Shown one piece after another: positions 15,196 through 37,116 of a stretch of DNA of 44,483 nucleotides. Position 1 is the first letter of the stretch; every line of letters begins with the position of its first letter. Under the pieces are notes generated by a model that saw nothing but the letters and a program-made list of their open reading frames with translations, was not told where the DNA came from and made no database searches. This stretch comes from Mariniflexile gromovii (GTDB lineage: Bacteria; Bacteroidota; Bacteroidia; Flavobacteriales; Flavobacteriaceae): positions 1 to 44,483 of the forward strand of contig NZ_JAGJCB010000028.1 of assembly GCF_017814435.1 (NCBI RefSeq). The letters run 5' to 3'. The position numbers and the translations under genes were made by a program.

Positions 15196-15698
15196 GATGA
15201 TTGAGTTTTATTTTTATTAAAATTAATTTTTATAAATGTAAGTTTTATTCTAAGTGCGTGCAAATAAAAAATAAACATTATCTACTTTTTATTTAAAAAA
15301 CTGTGCTTAAAACTCCTTTTGTAAGCACAAATAGGATTAACGGCGTTAATTACGCCATAAAATTTCTTAAAATCACCGAGAAAAAGATAATAAAAATGCT
15401 CCAATTATAAAAAAGGAGCATTTCATTTTTAACCAACAACGTAAGTTTTGATAACATTGTTGATTCGCTATTAATTTAGTTCAAAATTAATTTCTTTAAA
15501 TTTTTATATGATATTTCCAAAACGGTTTGAATTCATTTTTTGATTTTGCTATAAACACACATGGCCAAATAGCCTTCAATATTTCCTTCTTCATGCTTTA
15601 GATTTAAACTCACTCAATGATATAAGACTGATGTAGCTACGTTGTTTTCTATAAATTTTAGCATAGCAATCTCAGGATTAACTCGCCACATATAATGG
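15196..15698. other. 500-bp intergenic region with terminator hairpin and possible gene remnant
   Basis: The region contains the hairpin at 15394-15423 and otherwise AT-rich sequence. On the minus strand, from about 15690 to 15535, one frame reads 25 residues (MWRVNPEIAMLKFIENNVAT and five more), a TGA, then about 26 further open residues. It may be a decayed coding segment, but the signal is weak. Confidence 0.35.
15394..15423 (-). terminator. Hairpin terminator downstream of the STAS-like gene pair
   Basis: AAATGCTCC (15394-15402) pairs with GGAGCATTT (15415-15423), and on the minus strand the stem is followed by a T-rich run (TTTTATTATCTTTTTC). It lies 275 bases after the stop of the second STAS-like gene. 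Confidence 0.65.
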
Positions 15699-16124
15699 CT
15701 ACTTATCTTCATCAAGCATCATTTTGGTGTTTATAGAATATGTTAATGCTTCATCAAAATTCTTGAAAATTGCACAAGGCGTATGAGGTTCGTAAATTCT
15801 TTTATAGGAATTAATCAATAATTTAGTGTTTATCGAATTAATTACAAACGCTTCAGAAACTCTAACTTTCTTAAAAACAGAGCTGTTGGCAAAAAACTTG
15901 GCTGCTTCTGTACTAAAGGTTCCATGACAATCTCTTATGTCTATTAAAAAAGGCATGGGTTTACCTTGCGACAAGGAAAAAATAGCTTTTTCATATGTTT
16001 CAACAGTATCTACACTTAGCGTGAGATTAGTGTCTTTATTCTTGAATTCACAAAAAAGAATACCTAAAGAGTTTGTCCAGAATAGAGCTTTATTGAGTTT
16101 TATTACTTTTTTAGGAAAATCCAT
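15699..16124 (-). CDS. SpoIIAA/STAS-like small protein (DUF7793-type), second of a tandem pair
   Basis: The 141-residue protein resembles the flavobacterial STAS/SpoIIAA-like proteins annotated as DUF7793: an N-terminal beta strand pair ALFWTNSLGILFCEFKN, a helix around YEKAIFSLSQGKPMPFLIDI with the characteristic P-x-L-(I/V)-D-(I/L)-R, a helix TEAAKFFANSSVFKKV, and a C-terminal FKNFDEALTYSI. Such proteins are cytoplasmic and may act as partner-binding switches, but no phosphorylatable Ser/Thr can be assigned with confidence. It overlaps its upstream paralogue by one base. Pairwise similarity with that paralogue is visible only in motif positions, so the two have diverged. Function is unknown. 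Confidence 0.65.
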   Translation of the reverse strand: MDFPKKVIKLNKALFWTNSLGILFCEFKNKDTNLTLSVDTVETYEKAIFSLSQGKPMPFLIDIRDCHGTFSTEAAKFFANSSVFKKVRVSEAFVINSINTKLLINSYKRIYEPHTPCAIFKNFDEALTYSINTKMMLDEDK

Positions 16125-16537
16125 TAAGATACGGCATTAAAATTATGATTAATCCCTAACGAATAAGCGAATGCACTATCGTAATTGGTAAAAATTTTAT
16201 TAGGAATTACAGGATCTTGAATCCCTCTTAATAAAATAAGCAAAACTTGTACAAAATAAGAATTAACAACAAAAGACTTTGAAAGTATTTCCGATTTAAT
16301 TTCTGGATTAAACGCTAAAATTCTAACTACCGATAAGGCATAATGATCATTCAATTGTCTAAGATCAACAAGTAATGGATAGTACATACCATCAGATAAC
16401 GTTGTGATAGCTCTTAAATATTCTTCTAAAAACTCTTCGCTAAATTGCTTTTTACATTCGCTACTTATAAACTTGCAAAAAAGAACACCGTCTTCTAACC
16501 AAAATTTAGCTTTTTTACATTTTATTTGCTTATTCAT
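16124..16537 (-). CDS. SpoIIAA/STAS-like small protein (DUF7793-type), first of a tandem pair
   Basis: The 137-residue product starts MNKQIKCKKAKFWLEDGVLF. It shares the family order with its downstream neighbour: strand pair FWLEDGVLFCKF, helix YLRAITTLSDGMYYPLLVDLR with the P-L-L-V-D-L-R strand, a middle helix, and FTNYDSAFAYSLG at the end. I chose ATG 16537; a TTG 60 bases upstream would overlap the promoter. A -24/-12 sigma54-type promoter ends 28 bases before this start, and two inverted repeats lie further upstream toward the activator gene. The pair is therefore the most likely target of the adjacent sigma54 activator. Confidence 0.65.
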   Translation of the reverse strand: MNKQIKCKKAKFWLEDGVLFCKFISSECKKQFSEEFLEEYLRAITTLSDGMYYPLLVDLRQLNDHYALSVVRILAFNPEIKSEILSKSFVVNSYFVQVLLILLRGIQDPVIPNKIFTNYDSAFAYSLGINHNFNAVS

Positions 16538-16560
16538 ATCTGTTATTCTATTATAAACAG

Positions 16561-16580
16561 AATGACAATTGGTGTGCCAA
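16561..16580 (-). promoter_or_regulatory. Candidate sigma54 (-24/-12) promoter of the STAS-like pair
   Basis: On the minus strand, TTGGCACACCAATTGT begins at 16580. It matches the consensus YTGGCAC-N5-TTGC closely: GG (16578-16577) and the -12 dinucleotide (16566-16565) are separated by the required 10 bases. The -12 pair is GT rather than GC. Transcription would begin near 16553, leaving a leader of about 16 bases before ATG 16537. Confidence 0.65.
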
Positions 16581-16668
16581 AGCTTAATGTAAGACAATTA
16601 TATTTAACTATTTATTTGATTATTAAATAGTTACAAATTAAACGAAAGAAACGGCCTATCTTTTAAAT

Positions 16669-16680
16669 AACGGAATACCG
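16669..16680. promoter_or_regulatory. Candidate activator-binding site (proximal)
   Basis: AACGGAATACCG contains the inverted repeat CGG-AATA-CCG. An identical 12-mer lies exactly 40 bases away at 16709. It lies about 120 bases upstream of the predicted start site, a usual distance for a sigma54 enhancer. Confidence 0.5.
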
Positions 16681-16708
16681 CCACTTAAATAAACAATAAC
16701 CTACAAAA

Positions 16709-16720
16709 AACGGAATACCG
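16709..16720. promoter_or_regulatory. Candidate activator-binding site (distal)
   Basis: This is the second copy of AACGGAATACCG, here extended to the perfect-arm palindrome ACGG-AATA-CCGT (16710-16721). It sits five bases downstream of the sigma54 activator stop codon and about 160 bases upstream of the predicted transcription start. Confidence 0.5.
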
Positions 16721-16725
16721 TAATT

Positions 16726-19700
16726 TTATAAAGGTTTGACAATATTAAGTTTAGCCATTTTATCACGAAGCGTACTTGGTTTTAAATCAAGCAAAATAGC
16801 GGCGCCTTTGGGACCACTGATTTTCCAATTACATTGTTCTAACACTTGTAGAATATGATGGCGCTGAACAGCATCTAAAGATAGGTTTTTAGTATTAATT
16901 GAAATTTTTGAGTTTTGAGTTTTAGATTCAAAACCTGGAATTAGTAATGTTTCATTTGTTGACAGTATTGAGGCTCTTTCAATTAAATTTTCCAATTCAC
17001 GAATATTTCCAGGCCAGTCATACCCTATTAATTGGTTCATGGCTTCATCAGATATGTATTTAATGTTTTTGGAATATGCTTTATTAAACTTATCCACAAA
17101 ATGCTCTACTAATAATGGAATATCATCCTTACGCTTTCGTAAGGGCGGTACTTCTATAGGAAATACATTCAATCGAAAATATAAATCTTCCCTAAACTGT
17201 TTTTTTTCAACTTCTTCTTTAAGGTTTCTATTTGTTGCCGCTATAACTCTTACATCTAACTTTTTAATAACTGCACCACCTACCGTTTCTATTTCACCTT
17301 CTTGTAAAAACCTTAATATTTTTGGCTGCATATCTATAGGCAACTCGCCAATTTCATCTAAAAACAAAGTGCCACCATCTGCCAATTCAAATTTTCCTGT
17401 TTTGTCTGCAAAAGCACCTGTGAAAGAACCCTTTTTATGACCAAACAGCTCACTTTCAATAAGTTCTCTTGGTATTGCAGAACAATTAACCTTGATTAAT
17501 GGTTTATTATTTCTTAAACTTATATTATGAATTGCTCTTGCCAATAATTCTTTTCCAGTACCAGATTCCCCTAATAACAATACCGTGGCGGTAGTGGGAG
17601 CTACTTTTTCTACCTCGGTAAGTACATTACTGAACGTGGCACTTCCATAAACCATTTCCTCATAATTAAAAACTAGATCTAGCTCGTTTCTTAGGTAAAT
17701 GTTTTCTCGTTCTAACTTATTTCTTAATACATTTAGTTCTTTATTAGCTTTTGTAAGCTGCTCGTTTGCCTTAATAGCTTCATTTTCTGCTAATTTTCGC
17801 TCTGAGCTTTCAACCATTAACGATACTAAATTTGCAATGGAAGTAGCGAATTCTTCATCATCTTTACTCCATACCCGTTTTGACCCAACATGCTCAAAAC
17901 AAACGATACCATACAAATCATTCGACACTTGAATAACCACATCAAGTATAGAATTAATTCCTAATGGCACAAGGTACTCTCGTTTTAAACCATCTGTAAT
18001 ATTATTAGTAAAAGCATCATGAATACTTATTATTTTATTTTTAAATATTGCTTCAAAATAATTGGGACTATTCGTTTCTTTAAGTATTATTCCCTTTTCA
18101 CTATCTTGATTATTCAAATCAAACAAATCTTCTAGCTTAATTTCGTTTTTTTTGTCATTAAATTCCCATATAGAAACACGTGCCACATCTAAAGTTTCTG
18201 CTGAAAGCTTGGTTATTTTTTTTAGAGCTTCTCTATAATCGGTACCAACAAGACTGGCTAATTCTAATATTACATTCTTCTTTTGATTGGATTTGGCTGC
18301 ATTATCTTCCAATAGTTTTTTGGCTCTTTCCTCTTCAGAAACATCTTTTACAGTACCAAATAATGCAATAACCTCTCCCACATCGTTTGTAATATTACCT
18401 GCTAAAAATGAAGCCCAAAACTTTTCTCCATTTTTTCTAATAAACTCAAATTTAAAAAATGGTGCCTCTCCAGTTGCAACCCTATCTTTAGTCTTAGACA
18501 TTTCCCCAAAATCTTCCTCTTTAGCAAATGGGTATGGTAGGTTAAGCCCTATTAACTCTTCTTTGGAATAACCAAGCATGTTACAGAAAGCATCGTTAAC
18601 CATCATAATTTCTGCCTTAGGATTAACTATTAACAACCCCTCTTGCATGGACATGATAAGCTTATCTGTAAATTCTTTGGCTAGTTTTAAGTCTATTTCT
18701 GCTTTTTTTAGGCTGGTTACATCACGCGCAATACCTAATATTTTCCCATCTTTTTGAAGTTTTGCAGATATCTCAACGTCTAGTACAGATTTATCTTTCC
18801 GAATAAACTTTCTAGAAAATATTATGGACTCTCCTTTAAGTAACTTTTTTAAATTATTTTGATCTTGAATTATTTCACCAACAATGAAATCTTGAATTTT
18901 AAGTTTAGAAAATTCCTTTTCCGTATAGCCCAAACTAGTATAAGCAACCTTATTATAGTTGTATATTATGCCATCCAATGAATACGTGATGATAGCATCA
19001 GTGGCCTGGTCTATTAATGATTTATAGGATTCATCCTTCTTTTTAATTTCTTCAACAATCCTGAATTTTTCAATGGCAATAGTTGCTAAACTAACAGCAA
19101 AATTAAGCTCTCGAACCTCATCCAATGATGGTGTGTTTGTATCTTTGCTATAAATAGCAAAAGTTCCTAAAACAGTATTGTTCTTTGATATTATTGGCAA
19201 AGACCAACATGACCTTAAATTGTTTTCTAAAGCAACGACTTTATAATCTACCCATAATTTATCTGTACTAATATCCGAAACAATTACAGGTTTTTTGGTA
19301 AATGCAGCAGTACCACAAGAGCCGGCATTTTTCCCTATCACACCACGTTTTATGGCTAAGTTATAAGGTTCTGGCATTGAAGGCGCAGACACTAAATCAA
19401 GATGTACACCATCTTCATCCAGCAAACTAATTGAACCAAAATAATCTGGGTGAACAGACTCATAGTTTAAAAGAAGCTTGTCAAAAATTTTATTTAAAGG
19501 TGTGTTTACGGCAATTAAATCTAAAATTTCATTTTTATGGATTAATAATTGCTCTGCTTTTTGTCGTTCTACAACTTCATTACCAAGATCTAAACTTTTT
19601 TGTTCTAGCTTATTAATAAGTCGTTCACTATAAAGTTTTAAGACTTCGTCTCCAGAAATTCTTACTTTTTTAAGATACTTTACTTGGGTTTTTGCAGAAT

Positions 19701-20070
19701 TGAAAATATCGTTTACCGTAAAAAGTAACTGGTCGTGATCTATAGGTTTTCTTAAAAATTGTGCTGCACCTAATTTTAGCGCAAAATCTTCATCCAGTTT
19801 ATCCGTATAGGTAGAAGTGTAAAATACAAATGGTATGCTTTTAAATAATTTTTCCTTTTTACAGGCTTGACAGAACAAATACCCATCCATTATAGGCATT
19901 AAAATATCTGAAATAATAAGATCGACACCATTATGTTCGTATAGCTTTTTTAACCCTTCACTACCGTCATTGGCTTCAATAACATTAAAACCTGCTTCTT
20001 CAAGAATGACTCTTAATAGATATAAGTTTTCAAAAATATCATCTACAATTAAAATAGTTTTATTGTCCAT
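16726..20070 (-). CDS. REC-GAF-PAS-PAS-GAF sigma54-dependent activator with Fis-type HTH
   Basis: The 1114-residue protein begins with a receiver (about 1-125; ILIVDDIFENLY, LIISDILMPIMDGY, LRKPID). Then come a GAF (about 180-335; GKNAGSCGTAAFTKKPVIVS), two PAS domains (about 345-455 and 465-585), a second GAF (about 600-760) and a coiled coil (about 765-800). The AAA+ domain has Walker A GESGTGKE at 834-841, the sigma54-contact loop GSFTGA at 881-886 (GAFTGA with Ala to Ser), Walker B GGTLFLDEIGE and FREDLYFRLNVFPIEVPPLR. A Fis-type HTH ends it (GPKGAAILLDLKPSTLRDKM). It is six bases downstream of a CheY-like gene. It should open sigma54 promoters in response to phosphorylation and ligands. 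Strong -24/-12 and candidate binding sites follow directly after its stop. Confidence 0.93.
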   Translation of the reverse strand: MDNKTILIVDDIFENLYLLRVILEEAGFNVIEANDGSEGLKKLYEHNGVDLIISDILMPIMDGYLFCQACKKEKLFKSIPFVFYTSTYTDKLDEDFALKLGAAQFLRKPIDHDQLLFTVNDIFNSAKTQVKYLKKVRISGDEVLKLYSERLINKLEQKSLDLGNEVVERQKAEQLLIHKNEILDLIAVNTPLNKIFDKLLLNYESVHPDYFGSISLLDEDGVHLDLVSAPSMPEPYNLAIKRGVIGKNAGSCGTAAFTKKPVIVSDISTDKLWVDYKVVALENNLRSCWSLPIISKNNTVLGTFAIYSKDTNTPSLDEVRELNFAVSLATIAIEKFRIVEEIKKKDESYKSLIDQATDAIITYSLDGIIYNYNKVAYTSLGYTEKEFSKLKIQDFIVGEIIQDQNNLKKLLKGESIIFSRKFIRKDKSVLDVEISAKLQKDGKILGIARDVTSLKKAEIDLKLAKEFTDKLIMSMQEGLLIVNPKAEIMMVNDAFCNMLGYSKEELIGLNLPYPFAKEEDFGEMSKTKDRVATGEAPFFKFEFIRKNGEKFWASFLAGNITNDVGEVIALFGTVKDVSEEERAKKLLEDNAAKSNQKKNVILELASLVGTDYREALKKITKLSAETLDVARVSIWEFNDKKNEIKLEDLFDLNNQDSEKGIILKETNSPNYFEAIFKNKIISIHDAFTNNITDGLKREYLVPLGINSILDVVIQVSNDLYGIVCFEHVGSKRVWSKDDEEFATSIANLVSLMVESSERKLAENEAIKANEQLTKANKELNVLRNKLERENIYLRNELDLVFNYEEMVYGSATFSNVLTEVEKVAPTTATVLLLGESGTGKELLARAIHNISLRNNKPLIKVNCSAIPRELIESELFGHKKGSFTGAFADKTGKFELADGGTLFLDEIGELPIDMQPKILRFLQEGEIETVGGAVIKKLDVRVIAATNRNLKEEVEKKQFREDLYFRLNVFPIEVPPLRKRKDDIPLLVEHFVDKFNKAYSKNIKYISDEAMNQLIGYDWPGNIRELENLIERASILSTNETLLIPGFESKTQNSKISINTKNLSLDAVQRHHILQVLEQCNWKISGPKGAAILLDLKPSTLRDKMAKLNIVKPL

Positions 20071-20076
20071 TACTCA

Positions 20077-20445
20077 TTATTCATTTATAATACTTTCCAT
20101 TTGATGAACAAAAGTTTCAGGATTAATTGGTTTCTCCAAATACCCATCGGCTCCAGCTTCAATGGCTTTTTCTTTGTCACCACCCATGGCGTAACTGGTT
20201 ACAGCTATGATTTTTGTGTTTTTAGGCAACCCATTATGTCTTAGTTTATTACATATTTCATAACCATCCATATCTGGAAGTTGTATATCGATCAAAATAA
20301 TCTCGGGGTTGTTTTCATGCGCCAATTTTAATCCATCTTTTCCATTATAAGCCTTAAGCACGTTATAATTACTTTGTGAAAGGAGATAAGATAACATGTA
20401 CATATTTTGTTCATTATCTTCTATGATTAGTATTGTAGGTTTCAT
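20077..20445 (-). CDS. Single-domain (CheY/DivK-like) response regulator
   Basis: The 122-residue protein is a stand-alone receiver: acidic pair in ILIIEDNEQNMYML, phospho-acceptor Asp in IILIDIQLPDMDGYE, Thr/Ser in IIAVTSYAM, and Lys in YLEKPINPETF. With no output domain it works through protein contact or as a phosphate relay. It lies 75 bases after the histidine kinase gene and six bases before the sigma54 activator gene, so it may shuttle phosphate between them. ACAGGAAATATTT just before the start could act as a weak ribosome binding site. Confidence 0.9.
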   Translation of the reverse strand: MKPTILIIEDNEQNMYMLSYLLSQSNYNVLKAYNGKDGLKLAHENNPEIILIDIQLPDMDGYEICNKLRHNGLPKNTKIIAVTSYAMGGDKEKAIEAGADGYLEKPINPETFVHQMESIINE

Positions 20446-20520: not shown

Positions 20521-23049
20521 TTAATCGACAAATTCTTCTGCTATTGGCAATTTGAATATAAAATTACTTCCTTCACCTACTTTACTATGCACTTCTATGG
20601 TACCCCCTAATTTTTCGATTAGATTTTTACATATAGCCAGCCCCAACCCTGTGCCTTCATGACTTCTACTTAATCCTCCGTTTAATTGAATAAATGGCAT
20701 AAATAATTTATTAATATTCTTTTTACTAATACCTATTCCTTGGTCTATAACTTGAGTAACAAGCATATCGTCTTCTACATCCACTTTCACTTTTATGGTT
20801 CCCTTATTTGAAAATTTAATGGCATTGGATAACAAATTGAGCAACACCTGTTCAATTCTTCGTTCGTCACTATTTAAAGTAATATCCATTCTGGATATTT
20901 CGGTTTTTAGAACAAGCCCTTTTTTAGAAGCTTGTGGGTCTAAAAAATCGATTGTCTTTTCTAAAGTTGTTAAATAATTAAAAGGATAATGAAATACTTT
21001 TAATTTTCCTGCTTCAATTTTAGAAATATCCAAAACATCATTAATTAAACGCAATAAGTGTTCACTACTAGCTTTAACCATAGATAGTTGTTTTTTCTGC
21101 TCCTCATTAAGTGGTCCTGCAAATTCTTTTAAAAGTATTCCTGTAAACCCGATAATTGAGTTCATTGGTGTTCTTAATTCATGCGACATGGTAGCCAAAA
21201 ACGCTGATTTCATCAAATCGGCAGATTGTGCTTTAACTTTTTCCTTTTCCAATTCAATGGATTGAAGATTTAAGTCTTCTAAAAGGTTTAATAAAGCCTC
21301 TTTGCCGTCATTTAATTCTTCGGTTCTTAAATCGACCAACTTCTCGAGATTATTTTTGTAGTTTAATAATTCATTTTGATTGTTGATTCTTTCAGTAATA
21401 TCAGTAGCCGTACCGATATATCCGTACAAATTATTATTAGTATCAAACAAACCAATACTTTTAGCTTCTATAAATGTAATTTTTCCTTTCTTATCCTGAA
21501 ATCGCATTTCCGTTTTAAATTCACCACCTTTTAAAACGGCCGCTTTCCATTCATTTTCTATACGTTCTCTATCCTCTGGGTGCAATGCCTTAAGCCAACC
21601 ATATCCCATGGCATCATCAAAATTCATCCCTGAATATTTCATCCATTCTTCATTTACATAGGTACAAGCCCCTTGTGTGTCTGTATGAAAAATTCCTACT
21701 GGTGCATGAGATGTAAGACTACGGTATAACAACTCGCTATTTTCTAATACTTCTTCAATTTTTTTTCTATCTGTAACATCCTGCATAATACCAATTGATT
21801 TAACAGGATTTTGTTTTTCATCATAAAAAGTTTCACATTGATCATCTACATATTTAACTTGCCCATTATTAAACACCAACCGATAATTTATACGATAGGG
21901 CGTATTGTTTTTAACGGATTCGTTGTATGCGCTTATAACCATATTTCGATCGTCTGGATGAATTGCATTATAAAACATCTCTTGGGAGACCTCAAACTTT
22001 TTAAAATCTTTTCCGAATATCCTAAACATGCCTTTGGACCACAACAATTTTTTTGTTTTAAAATCGAGTTCCCAACTTCCAATCTTAGCAATCTCTTGCG
22101 CTTTATTTAATCTCGACTCGCTTTTTTTTATTTGCTTACTGGTAAATTCATGAATTGATTTTAACTCTGCTTCTTGTTCTAGTAATTTCTTGTTAATAAG
22201 CTTATCCAATCTTTCGGATTGTCCTAAAAAATACCAAACTCCCAAACTTCCCAAAACAGAAATTAAAAAACCAAATAGCGCAAACCAAATAGCTGTATTA
22301 AATTTCTGTTGAGCTGGAATAACATATAGTTTCCATTCGCCAGCAGACATTTCTATGGGCACTGCATATTCCTTAAAGGTTGACACATCGTTTTCTAAAA
22401 AGTATTCTTCCCTGCCTGTCTCAAAATCAACCTTTGACAATTGGTACTTAAAACGATCATCAATATCAATCCCAATATTTAGGTCGTTAAAAAAAGTGGA
22501 AAGTTTAGTAACAACTGCAGAAAACCCAGAAAATTTGCCATCAATAAAAATAGGCTGCCTGCTTATTATACCAACCCCTCCTTGTTTAAGGTTTACTGGT
22601 CCTGCAATAAAAAAATCTTTTCTTTTTATGGTTGCTAGCGCACCGCTACTTGCAGAATCACTTTTTAAAATATTTAAACCAATGACATCATTACCTTTTA
22701 ATGGATAAACGTGGGTAATATAGCCCTCGCCATCAACTAATTCTACGACATCAAAATATTTATTTCGTTCTAATAATTCTTTTGCTACATCATCAAAATC
22801 TTCCGGTATGCCATTACGTTCTACATTATAAGCAAGTGTTTTAGTAGCTGTGTAGCTGTACATAACCAACCCTTGCAGCTTCTCTTTGATTAAATTAACT
22901 TGATTATTAATTTCTTTTTTCTGCGTATTCTCATTAATTATAAACTTTTGATAAGCAATGTATTGGCTAATAATGAGTAGAATTATAAAAGTAACTACTC
23001 CAGCTATCAATGGTCTTTTTAGAAAAAGATAGATAGGGTGATTTTTCAT
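20521..23049 (-). CDS. CHASE-PAS-PAS sensor histidine kinase
   Basis: The 842-residue protein has a membrane helix (about 12-33), an extracytoplasmic CHASE-type sensor (about 70-200; GYITHVYPLKGNDVIGLNIL, IISRQPIFIDGKFSG) and a second membrane helix (about 252-274). Cytoplasmic parts are two PAS domains (about 315-435 and 438-560), a coiled coil and a HisKA domain with SHELRTP (His623). The HATPase shows NLLSNAIKFS, IDQGIGI and GTGLGLAI. There is no receiver, which fits the separate CheY-like gene downstream. It follows the five-PAS gene after 49 bases and probably shares its transcript. Confidence 0.93.
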   Translation of the reverse strand: MKNHPIYLFLKRPLIAGVVTFIILLIISQYIAYQKFIINENTQKKEINNQVNLIKEKLQGLVMYSYTATKTLAYNVERNGIPEDFDDVAKELLERNKYFDVVELVDGEGYITHVYPLKGNDVIGLNILKSDSASSGALATIKRKDFFIAGPVNLKQGGVGIISRQPIFIDGKFSGFSAVVTKLSTFFNDLNIGIDIDDRFKYQLSKVDFETGREEYFLENDVSTFKEYAVPIEMSAGEWKLYVIPAQQKFNTAIWFALFGFLISVLGSLGVWYFLGQSERLDKLINKKLLEQEAELKSIHEFTSKQIKKSESRLNKAQEIAKIGSWELDFKTKKLLWSKGMFRIFGKDFKKFEVSQEMFYNAIHPDDRNMVISAYNESVKNNTPYRINYRLVFNNGQVKYVDDQCETFYDEKQNPVKSIGIMQDVTDRKKIEEVLENSELLYRSLTSHAPVGIFHTDTQGACTYVNEEWMKYSGMNFDDAMGYGWLKALHPEDRERIENEWKAAVLKGGEFKTEMRFQDKKGKITFIEAKSIGLFDTNNNLYGYIGTATDITERINNQNELLNYKNNLEKLVDLRTEELNDGKEALLNLLEDLNLQSIELEKEKVKAQSADLMKSAFLATMSHELRTPMNSIIGFTGILLKEFAGPLNEEQKKQLSMVKASSEHLLRLINDVLDISKIEAGKLKVFHYPFNYLTTLEKTIDFLDPQASKKGLVLKTEISRMDITLNSDERRIEQVLLNLLSNAIKFSNKGTIKVKVDVEDDMLVTQVIDQGIGISKKNINKLFMPFIQLNGGLSRSHEGTGLGLAICKNLIEKLGGTIEVHSKVGEGSNFIFKLPIAEEFVD

Positions 23050-37069: not shown

Positions 37070-37116
37070 CGCCCTCATTAATAACCGAGGTCGAGAACCT
37101 CAAATAATTAATTATT

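Follow-up and report, generated by a model that had tools for sequence, protein, structure and literature searches.

The window, by which we mean the whole 44,483-nucleotide stretch of Mariniflexile gromovii DNA that was analysed, contains a gene for a 1114-residue sigma54 activator (16726..20070, minus strand) followed by two small genes on the same strand. The activator consists of a receiver, a GAF domain, two PAS domains, a second GAF domain, an AAA+ domain and a Fis-type helix-turn-helix (HTH; residues 1065-1108). The AAA+ domain matches PF00158 with an E-value of 9.9e-70 and carries GESGTGKE at 834 and GSFTGA at 881, as in an enhancer-binding protein, and the Fis-type DNA-binding domain scores 22.4 bits against the PF02954 cut-off of 22. 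A 122-residue CheY-like receiver is encoded 6 bp upstream of the activator gene (20077..20445, minus strand), and beyond it lies the gene for an 842-residue PAS sensor histidine kinase (20521..23049, minus strand; HisKA plus HATPase by domain matches), the probable partner of the receiver or of the activator. RpoN is encoded once in the genome (PF04552 on C4, E 3.6e-52), and the sigma54 activator domain has 12 matches there, six of them near-full-length. The two small genes encode DUF7793 proteins with a predicted STAS/SpoIIAA-like fold, referred to here as copy a (137 residues, 16124..16537, minus strand) and copy b (141 residues, 15699..16124, minus strand). The first base of copy b is the last base of the copy a stop codon; both proteins pass the DUF7793 (PF25056) cut-off, and they are 33% identical over the matched part. 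Elsewhere in the window, an S16-Flavobacteria ribosomal protein leader lies on the plus strand at 37077-37112 (Rfam RF03138, 59.2 bits).

The gap between the activator gene and copy a is organized around two palindromes and a promoter, all on the minus strand. Palindrome 1, CGGTATTCCG (16709..16720; ACGG-TATT-CCGT with the preceding base included), begins 5 nt past the activator stop codon (16728-16726) and is followed by a T6 run. Palindrome 2, again CGGTATTCCG (16669..16680; GCGG-TATT-CCGT with the preceding base), repeats the same 12-mer, so that CGGTATTCCGTT is read at 16720-16709 and again at 16680-16669 with an offset of exactly 40 bp. The sigma54 (-24/-12) promoter TTGGCACACCAATTGT (16565..16580) has the form TTGGCAC-N5-TTGT, which fits the sigma54 pattern TGGCAY-N5-TTG, with GG at 16578-16577 and GT at 16566-16565 (GG-N10-GT). 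An earlier note on this DNA had reported two identical 12-mers 40 bases apart and a GG-N10-GT element at 16580-16565, and these coordinates are correct to the base. Transcription would be expected to start near 16553, with ATG 16537 about 16 nt further on. The ORF caller also offers an upstream start for copy a, TTG 16597; the ATG seems the better fit, because a TTG start would overlap the promoter. The architecture of dyads plus promoter given in that note is present but incomplete: a de novo motif search revealed a third conserved element, AT-rich and with a consensus close to AAATNNCTNATNATCAR (16616..16632, minus strand), whose distances in the window are 48 bp to palindrome 2 and 53 bp to the sigma54 site, and which there overlaps a 10+10 bp inverted repeat at 16633-16605.

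This arrangement, called the cassette below, was compared among loci chosen by DUF7793 or HTH similarity. The sources were the window, a second genome of the genus (G002), 27 + 20 further loci, three activator loci without DUF7793, an unlinked operon and one second cassette. Removal of 10 duplicates (identity above 90% across 180 nt) reduced the 54 segments to 44; the second cassettes of loci L114 and L119 lie outside this set, and that of L117 is included. Because the scan sought palindrome 1 in the first 30 nt of a segment and palindrome 2 at a spacing of 36-45, it partly sets the ranges itself; shuffled sequences were scanned likewise. Both palindromes match in at least 7 of 8 positions in 41 of the 44 non-redundant cassettes, as against 1 of 4,400 shuffles, and they are perfect (8/8) in 19 cassettes and no shuffle; the sigma54 site is perfect (9/9) in 41 cassettes and 3 of 4,400 shuffles. 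The poor palindromes are the second of L157 (4/8), the first of L162 (6) and those of L088 (7 and 6), and the loci without a perfect promoter are L095, L096 and L112. The palindromes are spaced by 40 bp in 27 cassettes, 39 in nine, 42 in four, 41 in three and 38 in one. When the 27 cassettes with a spacing of 40 are compared in pairs, the mean identity of the palindromes is 0.87 and 0.85, values inflated by their selection through a pattern match, and that of the spacer between them is 0.36, where composition leads one to expect 0.31.

Gene order is conserved along with the motifs. Downstream of the G002 activator come CGGTATACCG and CGGAATACCG, at a spacing of 40 bp, and then the promoter TGGCACGTCAATTGT, with a diverged spacer; the operon contains two genes for DUF7793 (identities to those of the window 70% and 74%) and a PAS gene. 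The activator end PSTLRD[KR] lies upstream in 27 of 29 family loci (L069-L097), the exceptions being L073, which is an unlinked operon, and L097, which by eye adjoins an AraC-like gene. A scan of 20 named loci (19 assigned by title to a genus or family, plus one bin labelled 'Bacteroidia') found the PSTLRD[KR] activator end upstream and at least one cassette in every case, 23 cassettes in total. Among the named genera, Confluentibacter and Lacinutrix are Flavobacteriaceae, and we take the remaining ones to be so too. The earlier note had made its reading depend on conservation of the 12-mers beside homologous activator genes, and they are indeed conserved there. Because the key parts are held at fixed spacing in many relatives as the surroundings change, the control region is in all probability the switch by which the regulator turns on its own neighbours.

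In 37 of the 44 cassettes, 98-102 bp separate palindrome 2 from the promoter. The seven outliers measure 88, 89, 90, 104, 111, 112 and 112 bp, and six of them are about one helical turn shorter or longer than the rest. These six (L112, L129, L162, L084, L089 and L157) come from four differently numbered genera plus Algibacter and Flavivirga records, and their change in length is confined to one side of the third element. When L157, the 111-bp outlier with the poor second palindrome, is left out, five of six outliers are in phase (binomial p 0.003, a value that assumes independent events and an arbitrary null and serves only as a guide). The cassettes thus show what is expected of a bacterial enhancer, dyads 100-200 bp upstream that are kept in helical phase. 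The earlier argument that 40 bp approaches four turns needs adjustment: the spacing amounts to 3.8 turns at 10.5 bp per turn, and phasing is better argued from the distance between palindrome and promoter.

The gap is best read as a local bacterial enhancer and sigma54 promoter through which the adjacent activator would switch on the DUF7793 operon, a reading to which we assign a probability of about 0.88. The enhancer-plus-promoter interpretation was already that of the earlier note, and it now draws strong support at the sequence level from the conservation of motif, spacing and gene order, from a cassette at an unlinked target and from cassette duplication.

Cassettes outside the usual setting are instructive in this respect. 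In genome G237 the DUF7793-kinase operon and the activator are on different contigs, and the operon retains CGGTATACCG, CGGTATTTCG and TTGGCATACCCTTTGG. Lacinutrix loci L114, L117 and L119 have two cassettes each, one before DUF7793 and the second at 118-334 nt ahead of a gene whose product has a signal-like start. (Members of this protein family lie near the module in eight of the 20 named loci, L113, L114, L117, L119, L122, L123, L126 and L128, with short forms in L122 and L123.) In G204 and G093 (loci L157 and L162) the cassette directly precedes a PAS kinase-like gene and DUF7793 is absent. At L161 (G088) the pair and sigma54 site are followed about 140 nt later by a terminator-like hairpin, with no same-strand gene in the stretch seen; this cassette perhaps drives a sigma54-dependent small RNA or is left from a lost operon. 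A search for the pair across the class detected it in 4 of 395 genomes, with none for the reversed control among the genomes listed. The activator and a sigma54 site accompany it in the M. gromovii genome, G532 and G500; the pair in G620 was set aside as chance, being inside an open reading frame and without a promoter. G532 and G500 belong to another family and share the order activator, pair, promoter, Crp-like gene (identified by Pfam in G532 and by similarity in G500) and PAS-like protein, and in G532 a DUF7793 gene sits between activator and cassette. A degenerate cassette before DUF7793 was recognized by eye in G720 (L170). Given these various arrangements, the activator and the cassette appear to form the constant core, and the first target varies.

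The third element emerged when the DNA from palindrome 2 to the promoter was searched for motifs de novo. Its motif scores 10.9-11.0 bits; with as many restarts for the control as for the real run, the figures are 11.0 bits and at most 6.5 bits in 20 mononucleotide-shuffled sets. The element mostly lies 48 bp from palindrome 2 and 52 bp from the promoter, and in many loci it comes near the IHF consensus. Hairpins at this site are strong in seven of the 44 loci (z -3.4 to -8.5 relative to mononucleotide shuffles) and weaker in the window (z -2.2). The element may act in DNA bending, possibly as an IHF site, or as the activator terminator. At L071, L080, L086 and L112, palindrome 2 appears by eye to be centred in a long inverted repeat, as if a terminator had been built around the enhancer. 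In view of these four inverted repeats and the seven hairpins at the third element, part of the conservation may serve transcript ending. The enhancer region of some species may thus include the 3' end of the activator transcript, and for this reason bending and termination are not separable by sequence.

One could go further and regard the palindromes themselves as hairpins of the activator's intrinsic terminator, with the operon read from an ordinary promoter. They start 0-11 nt past the activator stop codon in 42 cassettes, and the stretch with palindrome 1 is more stably folded than its mononucleotide shuffles (mean z -2.3); the T6 run in the window and the inverted repeats around palindrome 2 would also suit a terminator. 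However, it is the sequence that is conserved and not the pairing. The CG..AT..CG positions are each retained in at least 85 of 88 palindrome copies, and the outer pair is something other than A-T in 26 of the 88, and in 21 of these it is unpaired, mostly with no compensation. A second copy at fixed spacing would be unnecessary for termination, and the pair is also found at the unlinked operon of G237 and in second cassettes that are not behind an activator gene. Termination as the main role of the palindromes was rejected on the pairing data and seems very unlikely, with an overlap of the two functions retained for some loci.

The enhancer reading also presupposes that the palindromes belong to the adjacent activator. 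A CGG-N4-CCG dyad suits many HTH proteins, and a different regulator, such as a repressor, might bind here while the activator acts elsewhere. The distribution of the activator HTH makes this very unlikely: 28 of its 32 best matches (E 1.6e-15 or lower) adjoin DUF7793 matches, and the other four are those of G237, whose cassette stands at the unlinked operon, and of G204, G088 and G093, where palindrome-like sites (some degenerate) and a sigma54 site follow the activator. Moreover, no other regulator gene is constant at the cassette among the loci inspected, and the distance of the palindromes to the sigma54 site is kept in phase.

Taken singly, the motifs are at or near chance level, and single-motif enrichment was rejected as evidence. 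The palindrome CGGNATNCCG occurs twice in the window, a count attained by none of 100 shuffles, but it is not enriched in the genome as a whole (16 sites, versus 22 for the pattern read backwards); its 14 sites outside the window comprise 13 inside open reading frames and one outside (CGGAATTCCG, L005). The promoter consensus TGGCACN5TTG has 24 exact matches genome-wide and the reversed control 13, so about half of the matches would be expected by chance. With one mismatch allowed, the window contains 8 matches where 8.7 are expected, and the promoter string alone is thus weak evidence. The combination behaves differently from its parts: the M. gromovii genome has a single exact pair at 40 bp, and such a pair is present in 12 of 397 family genomes, with none for the reversed control. 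All 12 family pairs lie 131-154 bp from a DUF7793 match, and all 12 of the stretches fetched contain the activator end PSTLRD[KR]. A search of the same genome for other activator targets, with up to three mismatches in the pair, gave four places as against two for the reversed control, and the three outside the window (2, 3 and 3 mismatches) were taken as chance occurrences and not as further targets. In addition, contig C1 of G000 has three intergenic sigma54 sites within 4 kb (358100-361954; L019, L020 and L021), two of them with TGGCACGCAAATTG, which precede proteins without a Pfam match; another site, L017, precedes a Lon protease gene. A chance conjunction of a promoter-like string with two short palindromes in an AT-rich sequence, for all that the single-motif counts would allow it, is refuted by the conservation of the pair among family genomes and of the 44 cassettes.

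To ascribe a SpoIIAA-like fold to the DUF7793 products is fair on the evidence of predicted structures. AlphaFold models of the two copies (pLDDT 84 and 87) have as their best PDB matches the SpoIIAA-like 2q3l and the STAS domain 4xs5, then RsfB, RsbS and SpoIIAA, at TM scores of about 0.5-0.6, with enoyl-CoA hydratases lower among the matches. The E-values are modest, at best 1.5e-4 for copy a and 1.8e-3 for copy b, and only copy a has matches at or below 0.001 (two). The Pfam STAS model has no match in either copy, and DUF7793 is the only model matched at E-values up to 0.1; the description of these genes as STAS/SpoIIAA-like in the earlier note is therefore borne out by predicted fold and not by the Pfam sequence model. 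Of 26 copies b, 22 begin helix 2 with a serine or threonine, as do 6 of 13 copies a, which suggests that copy b more often retains a putative STAS-type phosphorylation site.

In many relatives the operon is longer. A PAS/kinase-family gene is present in 14 of the 20 named loci and a receiver of one family in 13 of the 20, and the H-box AHDLKAP was found in all four kinases inspected (L110, L113, L123 and L126). What is left of the PAS (kinase) gene in the window is a broken beginning (15617..15703, minus strand), recognized by eye in frame 2 against the PAS proteins of L061 and L110. Judged from this comparison, the kinase-receiver part of the operon is decayed in M. gromovii, and the complete regulator-plus-target set seen by the earlier note is complete as to the activator and two genes but has lost the PAS kinase and receiver of its relatives.

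DUF7793 itself is more widespread than the cassette. It is present in three of six genomes of the genus, M. gromovii included, and DUF7793-like proteins occur in 79 of 385 genomes across the class; relatives of the 137-residue protein were found in 32 of 397 family genomes. The window proteins belong to DUF7793 (PF25056), as do other members in the same genus that lie without a cassette, namely the other copies in G002 and those of G004. Among distant DUF7793 loci (L165-L193, 1.5 kb flanks) the strict pair is absent from 28 of 29, the sole exception being L176, where it lies after DUF7793 and before a Crp-like gene. The family is thus not tied to the cassette. One cassette-less member in the same genus, L062, adjoins an AraC-type regulator, and a single 280-residue protein at L072 and L116 (Ulvibacter litoralis) represents a fusion of the two DUF7793 genes.

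The enhancer reading leads to a simple scheme. Motifs, spacing, gene order, domain content and the link with the activator HTH are there in the DNA; binding, sigma54 dependence, bending and the action of the STAS-like proteins are what we infer from them. Activator dimers would bind the two CGGTATWCCG palindromes 40 bp apart through the Fis-type helix (PSTLRD[KR]), and a bend at the AT-rich element midway would bring the AAA+ ring to the RNA polymerase-sigma54 complex about 100 bp further on, where ATP hydrolysis by the activator would open the promoter. The output would be the STAS-fold DUF7793 proteins and, in many relatives, also a PAS histidine kinase and a CheY-like receiver. Because the operon adds a kinase and a receiver, an upstream signal arriving through the kinase, the receiver and the sensor domains of the activator would install a second signalling layer. 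In M. gromovii, from which the downstream kinase part has apparently been lost, the two DUF7793 proteins would be the remaining product, and these STAS-like proteins most likely act by regulatory binding to a partner.

A more speculative proposal, which we think rather unlikely as a whole, is that of a two-stage module of the Bacteroidota. The sigma54 activator would induce two STAS-fold proteins, of which one usually has a phosphorylatable serine or threonine that the other has often lost, and the pair would target the co-expressed kinase, or the activator itself, in a partner-switching mechanism; genes for surface proteins would have been recruited by copying of the enhancer cassette. If this proposal is true, a STAS switch is wired into sigma54 control as a feedback loop.

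The general mechanism is a textbook one. Activators of the NtrC, NifA and NorR type act from dyad enhancers that lie 100-200 bp ahead of a -24/-12 promoter, and an IHF bend is often found in the intervening DNA. The present system shares with them the two dyads, the looping distance, the AT-rich element between and an AAA+ domain with a GxFTGA loop, and differs in its dyad, ACGGTATWCCGT, and in having the enhancer against the activator's own stop codon. The closest precedent, though a partial one, comes from Vibrio fischeri, where two papers describe SypG as a sigma54-dependent response regulator that controls the syp locus via upstream activating sequences, with the first gene of the locus, sypA, encoding a single STAS domain (PMC4517449, PMC10162802). 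There too a sigma54 activator switches on a locus that begins with a STAS gene. However, the recognition site given for Vibrio, TTCTCANNNTGMDWN (PMC10162802), is unlike the present palindrome; sypA encodes a STAS domain, whereas in DUF7793 the Pfam STAS model finds no match; and syp makes polysaccharide, whereas the present operon, in another phylum, adds a kinase and a receiver in many relatives. The main text of a comparative study of sigma54 regulons names other functions for Flavobacteriia and does not contain the word 'STAS' (PMC12316311). Searches of the open-licence literature found no description of an enhancer of a sigma54 activator in Bacteroidota, and searches of mostly open-licence literature found no paper naming DUF7793 and, among the papers listed, no description of this module, those listed for the palindrome letters being unrelated by title. 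As far as these searches reach, the site, the geometry, the STAS-like targets and the lineage appear to be new, and the claim of the earlier note that such a set is undescribed holds for site and lineage but has to be qualified by the SypG-sypA case.

What the analysis offers for tests in cultured bacteria is an exact site (two copies of ACGGTATWCCGT at an offset of 40 bp), together with its geometry and a set of targets. Among its relatives a natural experiment has taken place: the promoter distance shifts mostly by whole turns, and the cassette stays with its target where the activator gene is at another location and has been copied to new targets. For DUF7793, the association with the activator provides a first functional setting.
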